Assembly (NCBI GenBank): GCA_013306675.1 | Contig: JABLUY010000024.1 | Location: forward strand, 158,819-222,818 | Reading direction: 5' to 3' | Source of the DNA: Thraustochytrium sp. TN22 | Taxonomy: Eukaryota; Sar; Bigyra; Thraustochytrida; Thraustochytriidae | DNA length: 64,000 bases | Part shown: in pieces, positions 26,665 to 52,996 of the stretch | How positions within the stretch are numbered: position 1 is the first letter of the stretch | Layout: each line of letters begins with the position of its first letter | Notes under the pieces: model-generated | Databases searched by the model: none | What the model was told of the DNA's origin: nothing | What the model saw: only the letters and a program-made list of their open reading frames with translations | Program-made: the position numbers and the translations under genes

Positions 26665-28013
26665 CTGGGCTGTCGGTTGTCTGCCGCCTCTACTGCCGCG
26701 CTGTCGCCGCCGCCGGCCGCAGCTGCCGCCGCCGCCGCCGCTGTTGCTGTCGCTGTCGCTGCCGCTGCCGCTGCCGCTGTAGCTCGACCTCTAGCTCTAG
26801 CTAGCTAGCTCAGCCGCCCGCGCGAGCCGAGCTTTCCAGTGAAGAAGGTCACCGAAATGGTTTTGCCAAGGATGCCGAGCGAGCGAGCGAGTCCCGCCAA
26901 GATCTTTCAGTCGCTCGCGCGCGAGCGAGCGCAGTCAGCGCAAACGCACACCGTGCTGACGCCTAGGCCCTAGCCGTCACCGCTCAGGCTGGCCTTCGCA
27001 CTGCAGTCAGAGTCAGTGCCGAGTCGTGCTGACCACCACCCGGCCTTGAAGAAGGCTTGCCTGCCACTGCCAGGCCTGCACTGGAGCGCCTGCTTGCCTA
27101 GCTCCCCGACGGAGAGGCAGAATGGATGCCTGGTCAGCAGATGCCGCAGTGCAGCGCATCGTGCGAGCTCAGGTTGCAGGGGCTGGTGCCTTCAGTTGGA
27201 GCTGAAGGTGATGCGAACGCAGTAGCGCTGCGCCCGCCCTGGAAGCCCGAGCCCGACCGCCGGGGCCGGTTCGCGGGTCCAGTGCCTGTTTGTTAGACAC
27301 TGAGAGACTCACATGTCAGCTCCTCGCCAGGTTGCTGGTACTGATCGGCCACTGACTACTGCTACGGCTACGGCCTGGCTGCTTCTCCCCGACAGTAGGC
27401 AGGTGCCTGCCAGTCTGTGCCAGACGGCACTCAATCCTTCACGATGCCACCTGGCATGGTCGGCCAGACTCGGCCTGGTTCGCACCATCTCGTTCGTTAT
27501 GCAGCGAAGGTGACCAGCTCAGCTGCACATGCAAATCTCGGGTCTGAGTTCGGCTTCGCGCGCTGACCTTGGAAACCGGGTGGTACCAAACCAACCTCCG
27601 GACCGCAATTTCCACACTTCGATGGACCTGGCCACGGAGACCTGGGGCCCGTGAACCGGCCGGGCCCGGGCGACATGAGTCGGACGCCTAGGTGGCCGTG
27701 AGAGGTCTACAAGCCAGGACGCGTAGCTCTCTAGCTAGGCACCTGACTTGCAGCGCTGGCGCTGGGGCAGTGCTCGAGCCCCAGGATCGCTGGCTGAGCT
27801 GAGCCAACCCGGTCGCTCGCTCTATCCCCTCTCAGATCCCGCTCGGAGTCTTGGTCTCACTGCATCAGCCCTGTCAGTCTTGCTTGGTCTCATACCCGCG
27901 AAAAGCTAGAGCTGGGGAGTCTGTTTTGAGCGTCGCTGCGAATCTTAGCCAAGGCCTCCACGGCCTTGGCAACCGAAAATCCATCTTCATCATGATCATT
28001 TTCATCGAAAGCT
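26665..28013. other. Intergenic region, no gene seen
   Basis: 1.35 kb between the CoA-transferase start and the 3' end of the first FG-GAP gene. It contains TAGC-rich blocks (26780-26814 and about 27724-27738) and a GAGC-rich stretch (26876-26930). No plausible exon was found on either strand. Confidence 0.45.
26780..26814. promoter_or_regulatory. AGCTAGCTAGCT block upstream of the CoA-transferase
   Basis: Repeated TAGCT words 116-150 bp upstream of the ATG at 26664, like the blocks near 8735 and 46344. A promoter role is only inferred. Confidence 0.35.
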
Positions 28014-31000
28014 TCAAGCGACCGTAATAGAGTTGCTTGTGGGCCGGCCAGCGAACGCAGCCTCCGTGTCCTGCTCGGAGATTCTCTCGCGCTGGGTGCT
28101 GCTCGCGTGCTTGGAGGAGCTTCCACGGCGCGCGAGCACCACCGCGAAGACGATACTGACTGCCTCAAGCGCAAAGACGATTGCAACGAGCGTGCTCGTG
28201 GCACCCTGGCCGAGAACGCCGAGTTCGGCGGCCACGCCGATGCAGCCCAGCGCTTGCAGCAGCGCGAGCGAGGCCTGCGCGAGAAAGAGGTTGCTGCGGT
28301 CGCAGTACGGGGCGAGGCGCTCCGAGAGCTTCAGAAAAATGCCGCTGGCCACGGCGAAGAAGAGCGCGCCGCCACCTGCTGACGATTGTTGTGCGAGCAG
28401 AAAGACCGAGGAGAGCACGAAGCGCTGGCCCAGATCCACGCTCACGTACCACGAACAGCGGTCCGGGTACGGCCGTGTCAAGAACGCCACAGCTGTCAAG
28501 AGCGCCGTCCGGTACGTGGCCGGCCGCGGCTTGGCCGCCGTGGCCGCCTCCGCCGCCATAGTAATGCCTTGGCGCCGCGCGTAGGCCGCGCTCAGCGTGA
28601 AGAGTGCCGCCACGCCCAGCGGGTACACGCCCAGCATGGCGCCCGCGTACCCGCGCGCCAGCTCGCTGTCCAGCGAGTCGTAATCCACCGAGTAGTCGGC
28701 ACGAAGCGCCCTATACGGCGCCGGGTCCCCGGCGTAGCGCGGCATCTCCTGGTACAGGAAGCTCTCCGTCAGGGTGAGTGCAACGCCCACGTACACAAAG
28801 AGCAAGATCTGGAAACTCGCCCAGATGGCACAGTTGGTGGCGCCCAGCGAGGCGCGTGACCGAGGTCTCCGCAAGGCCGTGAGTGCGACCACAGAGAGCA
28901 CGAGCGCGATGCTCGCAAGGGGCAGGAGCGTCACAGCCAGGAGCGAGTCGTACTGCGTGGGCGATGCGAAACAGCCCACCTCTAGGAAGCGCAGCAACTT
29001 CACCACGTGCGCCTCCAGAATCGCGTGCACTGGAATCGAGGCCGACGTGGCCGGCAGCAGGGACGAGGTGCGCACAAAGAGCGACGAGAGCTGCGCGAAA
29101 GCGACCACCATGCGGACCTTGTCGCCAGCCGTGTGGCCGCCCCCGCCCTGCGCGCGCTGCTTCAGGTCCTCCTCAGGCGTCACCGGCCGCACCTCGAAGC
29201 GGTTGCGGAGATGCCTTGCAATTCGCGCGACGCAGGCCAGCCGCCCGCACGCGCAGCACGCGCCGCGCTCGGCGCCCTCCTCGTCGCCAAAGGAAATGTA
29301 CACGAGACCTGCGGTCACTGCCGGCGTCAGCACCAGCAGTGCCGTCAGAGAGGCCACGACGGCCACGATCACCTGGTCGTGTTCTGCCATGTCCTTTGAA
29401 CACGGCTCGCACCGTCCATCCTGTAGCGCTGCGCCCTCCTCGCACTCCACACACAGAACGCCTTGATGGTACGGCGCGCAATAATCCCCAAAGTCGCCAC
29501 CTTTGCACGCACTGCCGTCCCCGCGACAGGCGAGCATGTCCTGGCTCGATCGTGCGATGCGCCAGTAGCCCGCACGCAGTGGCACAGTGTCCAGCGTCAG
29601 GCCCGCCAGCTCGCACATGACACCCTCTGCAAAGGACGTCTCCGCGCACAAAACCGGATCATCGCCGAGCATCAGGGAACCCGCCCCCGACGTGCAGTTC
29701 GCGCTCGACCTCGCCCCCAGATCCAGCGTCACGGGAAAGTCATCCGGGCACGCGGTGCAGCTCCCATTGTCATCGTAAAAGTTCTTCGCACAGACGCAAT
29801 CCTCGCCGACGACGGTGCGGTCTGAGGGGCACGCGCAGTCCGCCTCACTCGTGGCACCCACGGCCCACGTCAGCGCGGAGGCCGGCGTGCACGCCGAGCA
29901 GGAGGTCGTCATGCCCGTCACGTTCGAATACGTGCCCAGCGGGCACTCGTCGCAGCGGCCCGCCTCCGCGTTCAAGTACGTCCCGGCCGGGCAATGGCAC
30001 GCAAAGGATCCACCGTCCTGCGCCACTGTGACGAAGCCCTCCTTACATTGGCAGTCCTCGAGCGTGAGCGCCTCGGGCCACGCCGGCAGACGGGTCGTCT
30101 GCGAGTACGCCGGGCACGCCTGGTCGCAGTCGCGCCCGTACACGTCATCACGCGCACACAGCTCGCACGCGTCGCCCGTGAAGGTGTCCTGCTTGTAGCA
30201 CAGGCACGTGCCGATGGCATCCCAGATCGAGTCGTCCACCTGAGCCGGCAGCTCCCCGCCGAGGAGGGCCAGGGCGACGTCGCTCAGCGTCGCGTACTCC
30301 AAGAGCTCCGGCCGCACGCACGTGCCGCGAAAGGAGCACGCCGAGAGGCACTCGCGTGCCGTGTTGCGAAAGAACCAGAATCCTGTCTCGTCCTCGTCGT
30401 AAGACAACGCGTCCAGATCGCCATCTAGGTCGAAGTCTGCAATCTCCACGGCTTCGAAGCCTATAGGGCTCACGAAGGGATCTCCAGTCCCGTCAATCTC
30501 CATGAAGGAGGGCGTGCTGACGCTGCCGTAGTTGCGCCAGTACCAGAGCAACCCCTGGCCCTCATACGGTTCGAGGAGCACCATGTCTAGCAACCCATCT
30601 CGGTCCTGGTCCGCCAGCTTCACGCGCGTGTACCTATCCGATGCAATGCTCGTCTTCCACACCGCCGCGGCGCTGCCAAAGTCCGGCGCGCTCGCTGTCC
30701 CGCGGTTCCGCAGGTAGACAATTTGCGTCGCCAGGAGCAGGACGGCGTCCGGAATGCCGTCGCCGCTCAGGTCACCAAAGGCCACGTCCAGAGGCTGCTC
30801 GCCGCGCGAGCGGAACGGGTCTGTCGCCGCCGCAAATGACGCAAAGATCGGCACCTCCCCTGCCCAGCCCGTCGCCTTGAGGAGGCGCGGTGCCTTGCCC
30901 TGGCAAAGCGCTACTACATCGGGGAGGCCGTCCCCGGTGAGATCGCTCAGCACGACGCGCTTGAGGTTGCACGTGCTGTCGGAGCCCCAAGTCAGCGTGG

Positions 31001-32941: not shown

Positions 32942-34132
32942 TCAAAAAGGTGCGGCCTGGGCGTCCAGCTCAAAGAGCATGGCTGCGGCTCGACGGCGAT
33001 CGCGAAAGCCACGATAGGCGCGCTGCAGGTCCAGAGCCGCGGACTGGCGCCGATCGCGCAGCTTACGCGCCTCATGCACGCTCTTGTTGCGGTACCTGCC
33101 GCGCCTTCCCTTGGCAGGCACTCCTCTCTTGCGCTTGGTCTTGCCTGTTCGGCCTTTGCTCTTTGTCCCGCTGCTCTCCTGCTCGTGCACTCTTCGAGGA
33201 GAAGGAGAGGCCTGGGAAAAGGAGGCCGCGGCACTGGGGCTGCTCTGGCGAAGCGGAAATCTCAGTTTGGTCCTGGTGTCCGCACTTGGTCGCCTGATGG
33301 TGGTGCCGTTCGTGGTGTTGGTGTCGTCGTCGCCGTCTTCATCGTCCTCGTCGTCCAGATCTCCGTTGAAGAGCTTGCGAACGAGACGGCCACGACAAAT
33401 GGCCTGGAGCTTGGAAAGGATGTTCATGGAGGCTTGATGAACCTTGCGCGCCATGCAGCGGCGCCAGAACCGCTGAAGGACGGCCACCGCGGCGGCCCGA
33501 CGTGCCGCGCGCCGCCGCCCCAGCCACCCGCGGCCCAGTCGCTGCAAATCGACCATTGCGCCGAGCTCACGCTGCTGCGCGGCCTGGACTTCGCGTTCTG
33601 CGCGGAGTCGCTCTTCGCGAAGACCTTGCCGGAGGCCTCGGACGCGCCGACGCGCGAGGAAGCCGCGTGTCACAGACTGCATGACGATGGCGCTGTCCTG
33701 CTCCAGGTAGAAGCGCCGCCGCCGTCGCTCGCGCACCATGACGCGGTCATTGCGGAGCTGCAAGAGCTTGATCTCCTGCAGCATGCGCCGGTGGAAGTCG
33801 TCGTAGCGTTCCTGCTGCGCAGCAGCCATCTCCCGGCGCCGCTCGAGCCTCCTGTCCGCAAGCCAGGTTTCTCTGGTGGCGGCATCGAGCGTGGTGCTGC
33901 GCGGCATGCCCCCCACGAAGCTCCTTGTGAAGCTCTGTGACCGCCCAGAATACGAGAGCGACTCGAAGCAAGCCGACTCATCGCGCTCCGCGCTCTCCAC
34001 CGACGCAGCCAGCTTGCGATGCCGGGGCGACCTGGGTCGCGACACGGCCGCTCGCTCCGGTGCGAAAGGCGAGACGAGCTGCAGCTCAGAAGGAATGTCG
34101 CGCCGGGCTTCGGCAGGTGCTGCGCGCTTCAT
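32942..34132 (-). CDS. IQ-motif (calmodulin-binding) protein
   Basis: Encodes 396 aa from ATG 34132. Residues about 85-145 are a highly charged helix (RLERRREMAAAQQERYDD). Four IQ-type motifs follow at about 148-167 (VMQSVTRGFLARRR), 194-212 (LQRLGRGWLGRRR), 216-234 and 239-257 (LQAICRGRLVRKL), and a fifth lies near the C-terminus at about 366-385 (LQRAYRGFRDRRR). Between them are an acidic run (DLDDEDDEDGDDD) and a basic, Ser-rich disordered part. Each IQ motif would bind calmodulin or a similar EF-hand protein. No motor or GTPase domain is present, so this is probably a cytoskeletal, basal-body or centrosomal adaptor; that role is an inference. The gene is divergent from the acyltransferase at 34608. 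Confidence 0.75.
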   Translation of the reverse strand: MKRAAPAEARRDIPSELQLVSPFAPERAAVSRPRSPRHRKLAASVESAERDESACFESLSYSGRSQSFTRSFVGGMPRSTTLDAATRETWLADRRLERRREMAAAQQERYDDFHRRMLQEIKLLQLRNDRVMVRERRRRRFYLEQDSAIVMQSVTRGFLARRRVRGLRQGLREERLRAEREVQAAQQRELGAMVDLQRLGRGWLGRRRAARRAAAVAVLQRFWRRCMARKVHQASMNILSKLQAICRGRLVRKLFNGDLDDEDDEDGDDDTNTTNGTTIRRPSADTRTKLRFPLRQSSPSAAASFSQASPSPRRVHEQESSGTKSKGRTGKTKRKRGVPAKGRRGRYRNKSVHEARKLRDRRQSAALDLQRAYRGFRDRRRAAAMLFELDAQAAPF

Positions 34133-34607
34133 CTTGTAATGATCGGTCGCGATCGGGTTCTGTGGTCAGCTCGGGGACGCTGCCGCGTCTTGACGGCGGC
34201 CTGCAATCGTCAATGTGGCCCGCCCGCCCGGGGGGAACAACCCAAAAGTAACATCAGACAGAATTTGCAGCGGCCAAGATCCGCGCCGTTTTGTTTGTCT
34301 GTCCGAGTCAAGTTAGTTGAGCAGGTCAAGCCTTCCAAAGGTCCAAGCCGACAACGCTGCCGGCGACGCGGCGCGGCCGCGGTGGTGCCGCGCGGCCCAG
34401 GCTCTGACGTCCATAACGGATTTTTTTGGCTGGGCTTGTGGCTACGCTCACCTGTCAGGTTGGGATGGGATGACTTCTCCGTAGTTCCGCAGCTTATGGC
34501 AGTGGCGCGACCCGCTGCGCTGCGCTTCGCTGCGCTGCACTGCGCTCGAGCCGCGCTGCAGCTGCAGCAGATCGTGCGCATCGGCGCCGCGCTGGCGCTG
34601 GGCGAGG
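34133..34607. other. Divergent intergenic region (IQ protein / acyltransferase)
   Basis: 475 bp holding both promoters. It includes a TGCGC pentamer tract (34511-34545) just before the acyltransferase start. No gene seen. Confidence 0.45.
34511..34545. repeat. Pentanucleotide tract, TGCGC units
   Basis: Seven 5-bp units in register (CCCGC, TGCGC, TGCGC, TTCGC, TGCGC, TGCAC, TGCGC), 63-97 bp upstream of the acyltransferase ATG. Confidence 0.8.
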
Positions 34608-35543
34608 ATGGCGAAACCCTTCGAGCGTCGCGACATGAACATGTCGGCGCGTACAAGGCTCAAGACGGCGCTGGCGCTCGTGACCCTCGTGCCGGCGCGT
34701 GTGGCGCTGCTGGCTACCCTGCTGGGTTGCTACGGCGGCCTTCTAGCTGGCCTGACCGCGGTCGGCGCACGGCAGAGCATCGTGCTGTACCTGACGCAGC
34801 GTGTGGCGCGTGCGACGCTGTGGATTTTGGGCTTCTTCGAGATTGAGGAGCACGGAGACCCGCAACTCGCTGCGCGTCCACTCATCGTGGTGGCCAATCA
34901 CGTCTCGTACCTGGAGGTTCTGTACTTCATGGCGACGCCACTGTGCCCGTCTTTCGTCATGAAGAAGACCTGCCTGAAGGTGCCGCTCGTCGGATACGTG
35001 GCTATGAAGCTGGGCGGCGTGGTGGTGGATCGCGAGCTGGGCGGCGCGCGGGGTGCCGCCGCAGCGATTGAGGATCGCGTGCGCCAATTAGAGGGCCAGG
35101 ATCGTCCTCAGCCCGTGCTTGTCTTTCCGGAGGGGACGACCAGCAACGGGTCGTGCATGCTAACGTTCAAGTCGGGTGCCTTCCGTCCGGGCGTCCCGGT
35201 ACTCCCGGTGCTTGTCGAGTTCCCCTTTGACGCCGCGGCCGGCGACTTCTCGCCCACGTACGAGTCCGTGCACACGCCAACGCACATTCTGCGGATGCTC
35301 GCCCAATGGCGGCACCGCATGCGCGTGCGGTACCTGCCCATCTACGAGCCCAGCGCGACAGAGCGCAGGAATCCTGCATTATACGCTAAGAACGTACGCG
35401 CGTGCATGGCAGATGAGCTCGATGTGCCCGCCGTCGACCAGAGCTACGAGGACAAGCTGGCATATCATCACGAGCTCTTCAAGCACTACAAGCGCGCAGG
35501 GCCCGGCGCCCTGTACCTGTACGTGAGACCTGACTTGCTCTGA
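34608..35543 (+). CDS. Lysophospholipid acyltransferase (LPEAT/LPCAT-type, PlsC domain)
   Basis: Encodes 311 aa. ATG 34608 is used; in-frame Met10 and Met12 are alternatives. Two hydrophobic stretches (about 20-52 and 58-78) anchor the N-terminus, probably in the ER. The PlsC acyltransferase motifs are in order: motif I NHVSYLEV (97-104), motif II region KKTCLKVPLVGYVAMKLGG, motif III FPEGTTSNG (173-181) and motif IV-like GAFRPGVPVLPV (190-201). These match the plant LPEAT / animal LPCAT branch better than LPAAT. The protein lacks the C-terminal EF-hands of LPCAT1/2. The family transfers acyl groups from acyl-CoA to lysophospholipids. The normally invariant motif I acid is Glu103 here instead of Asp (H-x4-E). 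Its stop codon lies only 53 bp from the convergent DUF445 gene. Confidence 0.85.
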   Translation: MAKPFERRDMNMSARTRLKTALALVTLVPARVALLATLLGCYGGLLAGLTAVGARQSIVLYLTQRVARATLWILGFFEIEEHGDPQLAARPLIVVANHVSYLEVLYFMATPLCPSFVMKKTCLKVPLVGYVAMKLGGVVVDRELGGARGAAAAIEDRVRQLEGQDRPQPVLVFPEGTTSNGSCMLTFKSGAFRPGVPVLPVLVEFPFDAAAGDFSPTYESVHTPTHILRMLAQWRHRMRVRYLPIYEPSATERRNPALYAKNVRACMADELDVPAVDQSYEDKLAYHHELFKHYKRAGPGALYLYVRPDLL

Positions 35544-48354: not shown

Positions 48355-49926
48355 ATGCGGCGGCTGTCGCGCCCCAGGCTCGACAAGTTCGGCGAGGAGA
48401 CGGTCGAGGCGAGCCTCCGATTCGTGCGGTTCTTCGCGGTGTTGGCGCTCGTCGCGGGGCTGCTCGGCGCCGTGACGAGCGGGCTGTCGCTGGAGACCGC
48501 GGACGGCTTCAGCCAGTATGCCGAGGTGGGCAGCGCCGCGGGCGTGAGCTACTTCGGCGAGCTGGTCCTGTGCATCTACATGATCTTCAGCGCGTCCGTC
48601 GTGATGGTGCTCGCCGCCGTGGCCCAGTTCGTCGCGGCGCATCGCGAACTGAAACCACATCTCATCGCCTGTGCAGTTCTCATCCTGATTGCTTGCATTT
48701 TGGTCATCACAGGGTGCGTGCTGGGCACGCAGTACGTGGAGGGTCTGTACACGGCGCTGTGCACCGACCCGACGACGTGCGATCCAAGCACCGAGCTGAG
48801 CGCGGAGCTCCGCGGCGTGGTGGACGTCGAGCTGGCCATCTTTGACGAGTGCTGCGTGGAGCGCGCTCTCGAGTACGACCTTATTCAGGGCAACATCACT
48901 GAGGACCTCGGCGTGGAGGACCCGCTGCTCATCGAGGAAAAGATCATGACCACCACGTACGGGCTCTGCCCGGACACCGCGCTCTCGCAGACCGAGTGCG
49001 ATGGCAAAGTCCCCTACGTCGTGGAACGCCTCGGTCTCGAGGACCTGGCGCTGCGCCTGTGCACCTGCGCGCCCAACGAGGGCAGCAAGTACGTACGCGC
49101 TGTGCAGGCCATCCGCGACGCCAAGTCCTGCGGCAACTTCGAGTCTCTCACCTTCACCATCACTGCCGAGACCTACGTCCCGACGCAACCCTTCACGCTG
49201 CTCAGCGTAGGTGGCCCACAGTATTCGGACTACTTCGACTTGCACCCGGAGTCGCTCAAGTCCATGACAGTACCCGTCGTGGGAAATCCGGGCCCGCCCT
49301 GGACCGCCAAGGACTTTCCCAACGGTGGCCTCGGCTGCGGCCTCGGAATGGCCAAGGGCCTCATCTGGTACACGCACTTGTACGCGACCGAGACCCTGGA
49401 CCTGACCTTCTCCGCCGGCATTGCGACCGGCGTCATCGGCATAGTTGCCTGCTTGCTCACGGGCGCCTACCTCTTCGTGTCGCGCGACAGCGAGCTGGAT
49501 CTCCTTGAATACCGTGACGAAGCCTTCCGGGTCCCGCCGTCCAAGAAGGCGCTCGCGACTGTCGGGCCTGCCGCGAGACCGGCCCCAGCGCGACCCGCGA
49601 CCCGCGCCGCAGCAGCCCAGGCAGGCAGCGAGGCCGGCCAAAGCCCCGACGAGGGCTCGCGCGCCGAGCGTCGCAACCTGGAGGCGCGCCTGCGAGCCTT
49701 TTACGCAGTGCACGCGCCGGCCAAGCTCGATGGCCGCGGCCAGCCCGACGCAGACGTGGTCACCTTCGGCCTCGTCAGTGGTGTTGACGCGCTCAACGCC
49801 AAGCTGCGCGACAAGTACGGCGCAGACCTTTCCGACGCCGACGCCGTCTCCGTCGCCACCTCGCACGCCGCCGACAACGTCATCGCAAGCCAGATCACGC
49901 GCAAGGACGTCGACGACATCATCTAG
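48355..49926 (+). CDS. Tetraspanin-like four-TM protein with large extracellular loop
   Basis: Encodes 523 aa from ATG 48355. TM helices lie at about 23-44, 66-94, 102-125 and 353-378. The short first loop and the very long loop (about 126-350) between TM3 and TM4 give a tetraspanin-type topology. The long loop starts with a Cys-containing stretch (ALCTDPTTCDP) and has a CC pair (DECCVER, Cys166-167) and several more cysteines, but not the canonical CCG, so membership is only structural. The cytosolic tail (about 380-523) has an Ala/Pro-rich linker and a conserved-looking end domain (RNLEARLRAFYAVHAP through ITRKDVDDII). Tetraspanins organise membrane microdomains; here that role is an inference. 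The loop is about twice the usual size. Confidence 0.6.
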   Translation: MRRLSRPRLDKFGEETVEASLRFVRFFAVLALVAGLLGAVTSGLSLETADGFSQYAEVGSAAGVSYFGELVLCIYMIFSASVVMVLAAVAQFVAAHRELKPHLIACAVLILIACILVITGCVLGTQYVEGLYTALCTDPTTCDPSTELSAELRGVVDVELAIFDECCVERALEYDLIQGNITEDLGVEDPLLIEEKIMTTTYGLCPDTALSQTECDGKVPYVVERLGLEDLALRLCTCAPNEGSKYVRAVQAIRDAKSCGNFESLTFTITAETYVPTQPFTLLSVGGPQYSDYFDLHPESLKSMTVPVVGNPGPPWTAKDFPNGGLGCGLGMAKGLIWYTHLYATETLDLTFSAGIATGVIGIVACLLTGAYLFVSRDSELDLLEYRDEAFRVPPSKKALATVGPAARPAPARPATRAAAAQAGSEAGQSPDEGSRAERRNLEARLRAFYAVHAPAKLDGRGQPDADVVTFGLVSGVDALNAKLRDKYGADLSDADAVSVATSHAADNVIASQITRKDVDDII

Positions 49927-50743
49927 AATCTTCCACGCTTTGTCCACGAACCTTTTTTTGTCTGCTGTGCTGACCCATTCTCGCAGCGAGCCTCCACCGA
50001 GAGTCCTTTTTCCCCAGCTGCTCCTTGGCTCGGAGCGCGCATCCATTCGCTCGCAGGTCTACGATCGTGCAACGAGCTCCCCGGCCACCAGCGCCTGGAC
50101 TCGCTCGCACTGACAGTCCCACCACCGCCGGAGAACGAAATCAAGCAGGCCGCGACTCGGAGGCTTGGCCGCAGTCGCTGCAGTGCACTGTCTGCCTGCA
50201 CAGCTGGACTCTCGGACTCGGGGCGGCGGCGAACGCTACAAGTGAACGCTACCAATGTAGCGCCGCCGTGTCCATCTTCGCGCACCGGGTCTTAGCGCCG
50301 CCTAGCCGACTCCTACGGCTCCCTCGCCCGCATTTTCCTCTCTCTCGACCGAGACACCCGCTGGACTTGTCCGTCAAAGAGGGGCGCTGGCCTGGCCTGC
50401 CAGGCCCTCGGACCGGCCAGGCCAAGTCCACGGCACGCCCTCGCCCCGCCCTGGATACCGAGGCCCAAGCCCCGGGCGGCGAGCCCGAGCGGCGAGCGCA
50501 AGCTAAACCGCAATGCGCGCGGCGGCGGCCTGACTGCCTCGCCTGCCTGAGCATCGTCGTCCATTCGTTCCCTCCCTCCAAGTCTGCGGCGCAGCAGCTG
50601 CAGAGCCTGAGACCGACTCGACTCGACTCGACCCGACCCGACCCCGGTCCGGCGCGCGCGCGCGGCAGGCCTGCAGACCCTGAAGACGGGCGGGCTGCGC
50701 AGAGGGCGGCGCGGCAGCGCGGCGCGGCAGCGGCGAGCGGCGC
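49927..50743. other. Intergenic region, no gene seen
   Basis: Contains the 3' flank of the tetraspanin-like gene and the promoter of the RING-Tubby gene, with ACTCG/ACCCG pentamers (about 50617-50645) and GCGGC repeats just before the ATG. Confidence 0.4.
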
Positions 50744-52996
50744 ATGTCGCGCAGGGCCGCGCTAGGACGGGCGCCAGCGCCGGCGGAATCGCGCGCCGGG
50801 CCAGGGCCTCACAGTCAAGGCCTCGTCCTCCAGGCACCTTGCGTGCAGACGGACCTGCGCCGCGCGGCCGCGCCGCGCGAGGCCGAGGCGCACGCGGGCT
50901 TCTCGTGGGAGGCGCTCTTCGGCGCCGCGGCCGACTCGCTTGACGGCGCGGCTCTGCTGCCAGGCCGCCAGCAAGGTCTGCAGCAGCGGCAGCAGGAGCA
51001 GCAGCAGGAGCTGCAGCACCAGCGCCAGCGTCAAGAACGCTCCTTCTCGCTGTCCTCCTACCTAGGCGTGCTGGGCGTCTTTAGCACAGGCAACGAGGAC
51101 GACAGCGAAGGCGTCGACGGCCAGCTCCTCGAGGAGCCCAAGTCGGCTCGCCGCAACTCCTGGTCGGTGCGCTCGCACCGCAGAGAGGCAGTCAAGGGCG
51201 CTCCCTCTGCTGCTGCTCCCGCTGTTTCTGCTTCCGCTTCTTCTTCTGCTGGTGCTGGTGCTGGTGCTGCCTCACTCCACTCCGCGGCGCCCCGCGGCTC
51301 GGGGACCGTGGTGCTTTACCCGGACAGCGACGCCAACACCGAGGCGTGCGAGGAGGACTTCTTTGACGAGGAGGCCAAGATCGGCCGCACCGACAGCGAG
51401 GGCAGCGAGGGCACCATGTCGGCAGAGTACCCGGACGAGGACGAGCCCCCGATGCTCGACGCCTGGGACAGCGAGGACGCCGACCATATCAGCGGCGGCG
51501 GCGGCGGCAGCGACAGCGGCAACGGCGTGAACGGCAGCAACGGTGGTCAGCCCAAGGAGCCGGCGGAGCCGAGCACGCCACCCACGGCGCCCCGGGGTGC
51601 CGCGCACAAGGTCCGCCCCGACGGCACGCCGCTCACCAAGGAGGAGGAGCTCTATCTCATGTACAACGCCAGCGCGGAGGCACATGCGGAAGCCACCAGC
51701 AGCAGCTCGACCGGCGCTAGTACCAATGCGCTCGCGGAGGAAGAAGCCAGCAGCGCCGCGGCGAGCGATGACCTCATGAGCGACGCCGAGGAGGACTGTT
51801 GCTTCATCTGCATGGCGGCCTTTACGGACAGCGACGAGTCGCCGCGCATCGAGCTTCCGTGCGCGAGCGGGTGCAACCGCACGCCGGTGCACGCCAAGTG
51901 CATCTTCGAGTGGCGCGAGCGGCGCAACAACTCGAAGGAGGCCTCTGGGACCTGCCCGCTCTGCCGCGGGCCGCTCGGCGAGATCGACTATCTGCCGCCG
52001 GACCCGCTTAACCGCGCGAGCTTCGTGCTCTACGAGGCGCGCCGCCGCTTCGTGCTTTACCCGGTGGCGCGCGAGCACGGCATGGTGCGTTGCTACCTGC
52101 GCGTCACGCCCTCCAACTGGCTCGGCATCAACTCCTACGAGCTGTATATTCAGGGGCCCTGCGCGCTCCCATACCCGCAGGGTTCCCTGCCACTGGCCGA
52201 GGGCCCGGTACAAGGCGACCAGCTCCTCCTTTGCGCACGCAAGCGTCTCCCGACGCTCGGCGGCCACCGCGTCGACATCACGCTCGACCGCGCCGGCCGT
52301 GACTACGATGCCAAGGGGCCCAATCTGGTCGGTCACGTGCACTCCAACCTGGTCGGTCTCGAGCACACGGTCACGGAGCCCGCCGTTTCGCCTGGCGCGC
52401 GCCGCGCAGGCCTGCAGGAGCTCGCCGGCGTCGTGTACGGCCAGAACCGCATCGGCGTCGGCATGGGCCCGCGCCGCATGCGCATCTGCATCCCGACCAC
52501 CGAGGATGAGGCTAGCACGCCCCGGAGTGCCAGCACCGAGCCAGAGGCAGAGCCCGGCGCCATGTCTGAGGAGCTGGACGTCGACCGGGTCGGGGCGACG
52601 GGAGCCGCGGCTGCCGCGCGGACCGCCGAGTACCGGCCTTCGCGCAAGCGTGACACCCTCGTGAACATGCTGCAGGCCGCGACGCCGGAGGAGGTCATGA
52701 CTAATCAGCTCCTCCAGTACGGTGAGAACCGCGAGCCGAGCTGGCTCGAGGCAATTCAAGCCTACTCGCTCGACTTCCACGGTCGCGTCACGCTGCCCTC
52801 CAACAAGAACTTCCAGCTCTGCCTGCACAATGATCCGGACCAAGCCGATACCTGCGTCCTGCAGTTTGGCAAGGTCGTCTCGCATGAGAGCAACGACGTC
52901 GCGGTCTACACGATGGACTTTCAGTTCCCGCTCTCGCCGCTGCAGGCCTTTGGGATTTGCATCAGTGCGACGGACCGCAAGCTCATGTGCGCTTGA
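50744..52996 (+). CDS. RING-CH (RINGv) - Tubby domain fusion protein, putative E3 ubiquitin ligase
   Basis: Encodes 750 aa from ATG 50744. The N-terminal third is disordered, with a Gln-rich stretch (about 75-95) and Ser/Ala- and Gly/Asn-rich linkers. A C4HC3 RING-CH-type finger follows: Cys353/Cys356, Cys373/Cys377, His383/Cys386, Cys404/Cys407, with W390 before the last pair (CPLCRGPLGE). RINGv fingers normally recruit E2 enzymes in MARCH-type ligases. From about 424 to the C-terminus is a Tubby domain: FVLYPVAREHGMVRCYLRV, LVGHVHSNLVGLEHTV, the LDFHGRVTLPSNKNFQL signature, VLQFGKVV and PLSPLQAFGICISATDRKL, ending MCA where Tubby proteins usually end ACE. Tubby domains bind phosphoinositides and membrane cargo. 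No TM helix is seen, unlike MARCH ligases. No frameshift or intron is needed; both domains lie in one frame. Confidence 0.85.
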   Translation: MSRRAALGRAPAPAESRAGPGPHSQGLVLQAPCVQTDLRRAAAPREAEAHAGFSWEALFGAAADSLDGAALLPGRQQGLQQRQQEQQQELQHQRQRQERSFSLSSYLGVLGVFSTGNEDDSEGVDGQLLEEPKSARRNSWSVRSHRREAVKGAPSAAAPAVSASASSSAGAGAGAASLHSAAPRGSGTVVLYPDSDANTEACEEDFFDEEAKIGRTDSEGSEGTMSAEYPDEDEPPMLDAWDSEDADHISGGGGGSDSGNGVNGSNGGQPKEPAEPSTPPTAPRGAAHKVRPDGTPLTKEEELYLMYNASAEAHAEATSSSSTGASTNALAEEEASSAAASDDLMSDAEEDCCFICMAAFTDSDESPRIELPCASGCNRTPVHAKCIFEWRERRNNSKEASGTCPLCRGPLGEIDYLPPDPLNRASFVLYEARRRFVLYPVAREHGMVRCYLRVTPSNWLGINSYELYIQGPCALPYPQGSLPLAEGPVQGDQLLLCARKRLPTLGGHRVDITLDRAGRDYDAKGPNLVGHVHSNLVGLEHTVTEPAVSPGARRAGLQELAGVVYGQNRIGVGMGPRRMRICIPTTEDEASTPRSASTEPEAEPGAMSEELDVDRVGATGAAAAARTAEYRPSRKRDTLVNMLQAATPEEVMTNQLLQYGENREPSWLEAIQAYSLDFHGRVTLPSNKNFQLCLHNDPDQADTCVLQFGKVVSHESNDVAVYTMDFQFPLSPLQAFGICISATDRKLMCA

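Follow-up and report, generated by a model that had tools for sequence, protein, structure and literature searches.

Results

The RING-Tub gene

The window, by which we mean the whole 64,000-nucleotide stretch of Thraustochytrium sp. TN22 DNA that was analyzed, carries on its forward strand (positions 50744 to 52996) a single open frame of 750 codons plus a stop, running from ATG to TGA with no internal stop. An upstream in-frame stop ends at position 50683, 20 codons before the ATG. The product, referred to here as RING-Tub, joins a RING finger to a Tubby domain. Just upstream on the same strand, a 523-amino acid frame at positions 48355 to 49926 shows several hydrophobic stretches by eye and had no Pfam match above the cut-off.

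The N-terminal region of the window protein (amino acids 1 to 340, positions 50744 to 51763) contains, by eye, runs of glutamine, of alanine or serine and of acidic residues. It precedes a C4HC3 RING core at amino acids 353 to 407 (positions 51800 to 51964), with the ligands C353, C356, C373, C377, H383, C386, C404 and C407. A link of 18 residues (amino acids 413 to 430, positions 51980 to 52033) leads to the Tubby domain, which is matched by the Pfam model PF01167 over amino acids 446 to 744 (positions 52079 to 52975) and is interrupted by a variable insert at amino acids 586 to 630 (positions 52499 to 52633). The Tubby barrel starts some 17 to 39 residues past the last zinc ligand. In hmmscan the Tub model scored 132.8 bits against a cut-off of 27, and PDB sequence searches matched the same part to chains of tubby, TULP1 and TULP3 (3.2e-22 to 3.8e-18). 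The segments FHGRV, NFQL, QFGKV and PLSPLQAF, which the first-pass annotation of this DNA had listed as Tubby hallmarks, are all found in the protein. Structure prediction of amino acids 334 to 750 from the single sequence gave a mean pLDDT of 33.5 and no usable fold.

Other modules were looked for in the same sequences. No F-box was found among the Pfam matches of the window protein up to E 10 (with the HMMER filters on), and neither a SOCS box nor WD40 repeats were found among its Pfam matches. The ZZ finger had no Pfam match in any RING-Tub protein. Hydropathy gave no membrane helix, the top 19-residue Kyte-Doolittle mean being 0.91 in the window protein and 1.11 among the four RING-Tub proteins described below.

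RING-Tub paralogs in the genome

The genome to which the window belongs (37.9 Mb, 453 contigs) was searched with PF01167. This gave 17 matches in 15 places; in the 14 places besides the window gene, open frames were read for domain order. A RING precedes Tub in four of the 15 Tub proteins found, on three contigs; both counts are lower bounds because the genome search scores only the best candidates. Besides the window gene, on contig C166, the set comprises L011 (C138, minus strand) and two genes on C53, L021 at 26682-28751 of the minus strand and L009 at 33301-35319 of the plus strand. The C53 frames are divergent, with starts about 4.6 kb apart, which suggests a local duplication; the grouping of this pair in the Tub tree is weak (87/77). 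No fifth RING-Tub protein came out of genome searches in which the query was either the full-length window protein or the RING segment of one paralog: after the four, RING matches fall from 3.9e-21 to 2e-7, and the contig of the next one has no Tub match.

The three paralogs are 38-42% identical to the window protein, and all eight zinc ligands are invariant in the four. Mean pairwise amino acid identity is 0.24 in the N-terminal region, 0.55 in the RING, 0.38 in the link, where Y416, P418 and D420 are nonetheless invariant, 0.45 and 0.56 in the two parts of the Tubby domain and 0.27 in the insert between them. It is high in the RING and Tub and low elsewhere, and therefore both domains have been kept while the rest drifts. 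When each of the four proteins was shuffled 20000 times, a spaced RING pattern, which had been written after the sequences were seen, never came up. A tree was built from the 15 Tub domains and a tubby chain; seven of its 13 inner branches were drawn open, and the four RING-Tub proteins formed one clade (support 100/100, and 100% of 200 bootstrap trees). A single fusion with subsequent duplication would be the simplest account that fits the four genes.

These findings also bear on whether the frame is an artefact, that is, two adjoining genes joined by chance in assembly or reading. The DNA is GC-rich and holds long spurious frames, such as a 537-amino acid ATG frame on the opposite strand. 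Against this, four genes spread over three contigs share the join, and both sides of it are conserved among them to the degree given above. We consider a chance join scarcely credible, and the earlier claim of a RING and a Tubby domain in one uninterrupted frame stands.

The survey of Tub proteins gave some further observations. In L016 (C166) and L018 (C431), Tub is preceded by an SH3 domain and by GYF domains, with Pfam scores over the cut-off. This architecture is unusual for Tubby proteins, and the two proteins group together in the Tub tree (100/99). In L019 (C396), PDZ gives a weak match ahead of Tub that stays below threshold (18.3 of 23.2 bits). A BTB domain suspected by eye in L020 was dropped, since neither Pfam nor sequence searches against the PDB supported it. 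Elsewhere in the genome, a 3044-amino acid frame passes the cut-off for the omega-3 PfaA model (2539.7 bits with its neighbours, against 1010.1) and shows repeated matches to profile positions about 1290 to 1700; the repeats are presumably ACP domains. PfaA is associated with thraustochytrids, with which the frame is therefore consistent; some bacteria have it too, and it does not by itself prove such an origin.

The RING finger

While the ligand pattern is complete, the RING scores in hmmscan are low. The zf-RING_2 model gave 23.4 bits for the window protein and 17, 26.8 and 24.9 for its paralogs, all below the cut-off of 27.3, and RINGv (PF12906) gave 16.1 for the window protein and 10.3, 19 and 16.6 for the others, against 21.6. 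Across the four proteins, hmmscan gave no RING model a score as high as its Pfam cut-off. In the whole-genome search, which scores differently, the window stretch obtained 21.1 for RINGv and, with neighbours counted in, 21.7, which slightly exceeds 21.6; the C138 copy obtained 24.2 and the minus-strand copy on C53 21.4 (21.9 with neighbours), and the fourth was not among the matches listed. Three of the four proteins were thus marked as over the RINGv cut-off by that search. The first-pass annotation had proposed that an HMM search detecting either domain below threshold would refute the fusion; Tub scored above its cut-off in hmmscan and the RING models below theirs. In our judgment the sub-threshold RING score is outweighed by the invariance of the eight ligands across proteins as far apart as these paralogs.

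The type of finger was then compared. In all four proteins the ligand order is C4HC3, as had been claimed for C353 to C407, and the spacing is C-x3-C-x5-H-x2-C. The best five of the genome's 16 RINGv matches (49.5-61.3 bits) have the spacing C-x1-C-x7-H-x2-C. In a profile comparison (hhalign), the four RING-Tub RINGs scored 50.7 with a finger on C188, 48.5 with a finger on C70, 46.6 with four RING-H2 fingers, 38.4 with MEKK1 and 32.0, the weakest of the five, with the five RINGv fingers. The C188, C70 and RING-H2 fingers had been selected because RING-Tub queries brought them up, whereas the RINGv fingers were taken from a search for RINGv itself; the order of scores is therefore biased against RINGv. 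PDB searches with the window RING sequence matched APC11 (5.4e-5), MEKK1 (4.1e-4) and weaker entries including DOA10 (0.17). The RING profile matched RINGs of E3 ligases, namely RNF38 (4.8e-5), APC11 (3.6e-4), MEKK1 (0.0055), FANCL (0.008) and RNF4 (0.0085); up to E 0.1 there was nothing under the name of MARCH or DOA10.

The C188 finger (L042, C188:9869-10033) lies in a 287-amino acid frame and is the best match to the RING-Tub RING outside the Tub proteins (2e-7). It has C-x1-C-x7-H spacing and exceeds the RINGv cut-off (26.3) but carries CPMC as in ordinary RINGs; it is a possible relative of the donor finger. The C70 finger belongs to a 659-amino acid frame (L048, C70:60500-66000) in which Pfam identifies RING and ZZ fingers and a SWIM-like motif is suggested by eye, and the ligand spacing of its first RING is nearly that of RING-Tub. 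Because its nearest match is spaced like a RING-CH finger and scores above the RINGv cut-off, the RING-Tub finger is best called intermediate, C4HC3 in ligand order and not canonical MARCH type. The ligand order and the spacing of the nearest own-genome finger speak for the earlier label RING-CH; the x3/x5 spacing in place of x1/x7 and the poor match to the five RINGv fingers tell against it. The proposal of a counterpart of MARCH ligases is weakened by the non-canonical spacing and by the altered lipid contacts described below.

Several residues of the finger other than the ligands are also invariant in the four proteins, namely I355, W390 and P405, together with R408 directly after the core. 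The Ile, Trp and Pro of known RINGs face the E2. I355 aligns with the Ile of the MEKK1 CPIC motif, which we infer to be Ile440, and R408 aligns with the Arg of the RNF38 CPICR motif, which we take to be Arg454. Ile440Ala was made together with Cys438Ala to inactivate the E3 function of MEKK1 (PMC4356348, as excerpted), and exchange of the linchpin Arg454 of RNF38 led to weaker E2~Ub binding (PMC12326332, as excerpted). These residues weigh on a reading in which the RING is a structural zinc module devoid of ligase activity, so that Tub does the work and the protein acts as an adaptor. That reading would agree with the sub-threshold hmmscan scores of the finger and with the unusual C4HC3 spacing, but a purely structural finger would have no need of E2-facing residues, and here the Ile, the Trp, the Pro and the Arg after the last ligand have been held constant across four diverged paralogs. 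We regard it as distinctly improbable.

The Tubby domain and lipid contacts

In tubby, K330 and R332 contact PI(4,5)P2, and a second site lies at residues 301-305 (PMC10445746 and PMC6366083, both in excerpt). The domain binds two PI(4,5)P2 molecules cooperatively, and the changes R332H and KR330/332AA lower its affinity for the lipid (PMC10445746, in excerpt). Tubby numbering was counted along the printed chain from an assumed start; 301-305 then reads RKRKK and 330/332 are the K and R in the K-x-R of GKLRSN, as expected. At the canonical contacts the window protein has H531-V532-H533 (positions 52334 to 52342). The pair is thus H/H in the window and H/A, S/S and C/K in the paralogs, altered in all four, and the His at the R332 equivalent of the window protein is the same change as the R332H tested in the excerpted part of PMC10445746. 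The second site is represented by R499-K500-R501 (positions 52238 to 52246), which align with its first three residues. K500 and R501, the equivalents of K302 and R303, are kept as basic residues in all four RING-Tub proteins, and R301 has its counterpart in two, including the window protein. Position 304 is basic in none of the four and 305 in three, the window protein having P and T at 304-305.

Both lysine and arginine of the canonical pair are kept in one of the 15 Tub proteins found, L017. L014 has K/K, and L012, L013, L015 and L022 keep one of the two, with placement less sure in the very diverged Tub domains. Since 14 of the 15 proteins found are without the exact K/R pair, a changed pocket is a general feature of the Tub proteins of this genome and does not set RING-Tub apart.

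It had been suggested that Tubby would serve as the phosphoinositide-binding part of the protein, and the alteration of the K330/R332 equivalents weakens this. Canonical lipid recruitment by the RING-Tub Tubby domain appears unlikely, because both contacts are replaced and the window protein carries an R332H-type change. There is a variant of the lipid reading, that of a membrane-recruited E3 in which Tub would bind phosphoinositides through the second basic site or the altered pocket and bring the RING to membrane cargo. The K302 and R303 equivalents in all four proteins and the R301 equivalent in two would serve it, as would the cooperative binding described in the excerpt of PMC10445746. 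Set against these are the altered pocket, with the loss of affinity reported there for comparable changes, and the non-basic residues at 304-305 of the window protein, although the three paralogs do have a basic residue at 305. On balance, we find recruitment of this kind rather improbable.

Discussion

The reading that we favor, with reasonable but not high confidence, is that RING-Tub is a single-chain RING-type E3 whose Tubby domain is a targeting part that mainly binds protein. Zinc and E2 binding, ligase activity and partner binding are predicted from the sequences. The RING at amino acids 353 to 407 would bind E2~ubiquitin and promote its transfer, and the C-terminal barrel would most likely hold a protein partner or substrate and not PI(4,5)P2 in the classical pocket; a protein is favored over the lipid because the K330 and R332 contacts are replaced in all four paralogs. 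The N-terminal region and the insert in the barrel, which differ between paralogs, may set the choice of partner, and the enzyme would be soluble. The observed basis of the E3 reading is one frame with both domains, conserved ligands and neighbouring residues, a single clade and an altered pocket. Speaking against it are the sub-threshold hmmscan scores of the RING, the retention of the K302/R303 equivalents in all four proteins and the frequent loss of the K/R pair among the Tub proteins of this genome. A further proposal, which we advance only tentatively, is that these proteins form a lineage-specific family of self-contained Tubby-RING E3s in which the barrel, once a PI(4,5)P2 sensor, has become a receptor for proteins, either degrons or cargo.

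Relatives were sought in other collections. Against viral contigs, the RING-Tub alignment gave 28 pattern matches and the Tub alignment 72, none of them confirmed; 54 pattern matches in prokaryote genome contigs were likewise not confirmed, and tblastn found no match in phage records. As these collections are described as viral or prokaryotic, absence from them says little about protists. Among the papers listed from the open-licence literature on the architecture or the organism, no RING-Tub protein was found, and the domain order may already stand in protein annotations that no paper describes.

In animals, a SOCS-box protein with a Tubby domain serves as adaptor of a cullin complex. In plants, Tubby is tied to ubiquitin ligation through F-box proteins, likewise as adaptors of a cullin complex (PMC6366083 and PMC11900523, in the parts consulted). 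A Tubby family with a RING of its own suggests that the barrel has repeatedly been chosen as a ubiquitin-targeting module. Under the tentative proposal of a self-contained Tubby-RING family, RING-Tub would add to the F-box and SOCS-box types one more independent link between Tubby and ubiquitin ligation, and the one without need of a cullin. With its lipid contacts replaced, it also lets one ask whether the Tubby barrel recognizes proteins directly.

The RINGv fingers of MARCH and DOA10 share with RING-Tub the C4HC3 order, nine residues from ligand 3 to the His, and C-x3-W after ligand 6. They differ in the fourth ligand, which is displaced in RING-Tub (x3/x5 against x1/x7), and in having C[ESQ]xC, in the five compared, where RING-Tub has CPLC. 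The RING-Tub proteins also differ from MARCH in having no membrane helix by hydropathy. The RINGs of MEKK1 and of the SWIM-like proteins, as we read them, have C-x3-C-x4-H-x2-C-x3-W against C-x3-C-x5-H-x2-C-x3-W in RING-Tub; these proteins carry other domains, the C70 protein for example having the ZZ finger that RING-Tub is without. The closest finger outside Tub proteins, that of C188, has a different spacing (C-x1-C-x7-H) and is found without Tub. TULP4/TUSP combines WD40 repeats, a SOCS box and Tubby, and works through a cullin scaffold. It resembles RING-Tub in linking Tubby to the ubiquitin system, whereas RING-Tub has no SOCS box or WD40 match. The nearest described system is that of the plant F-box Tubby-like proteins, in which, as in RING-Tub, a C-terminal Tubby domain follows an N-terminal module tied to ubiquitin ligation (PMC6366083 and PMC11900523, in excerpt). 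Quite a few of the plant proteins keep the K/R lipid contacts (PMC6366083, in excerpt) that are replaced in RING-Tub, and while they act through the F-box as SCF adaptors, RING-Tub has no F-box match and its RING would recruit the E2 directly.
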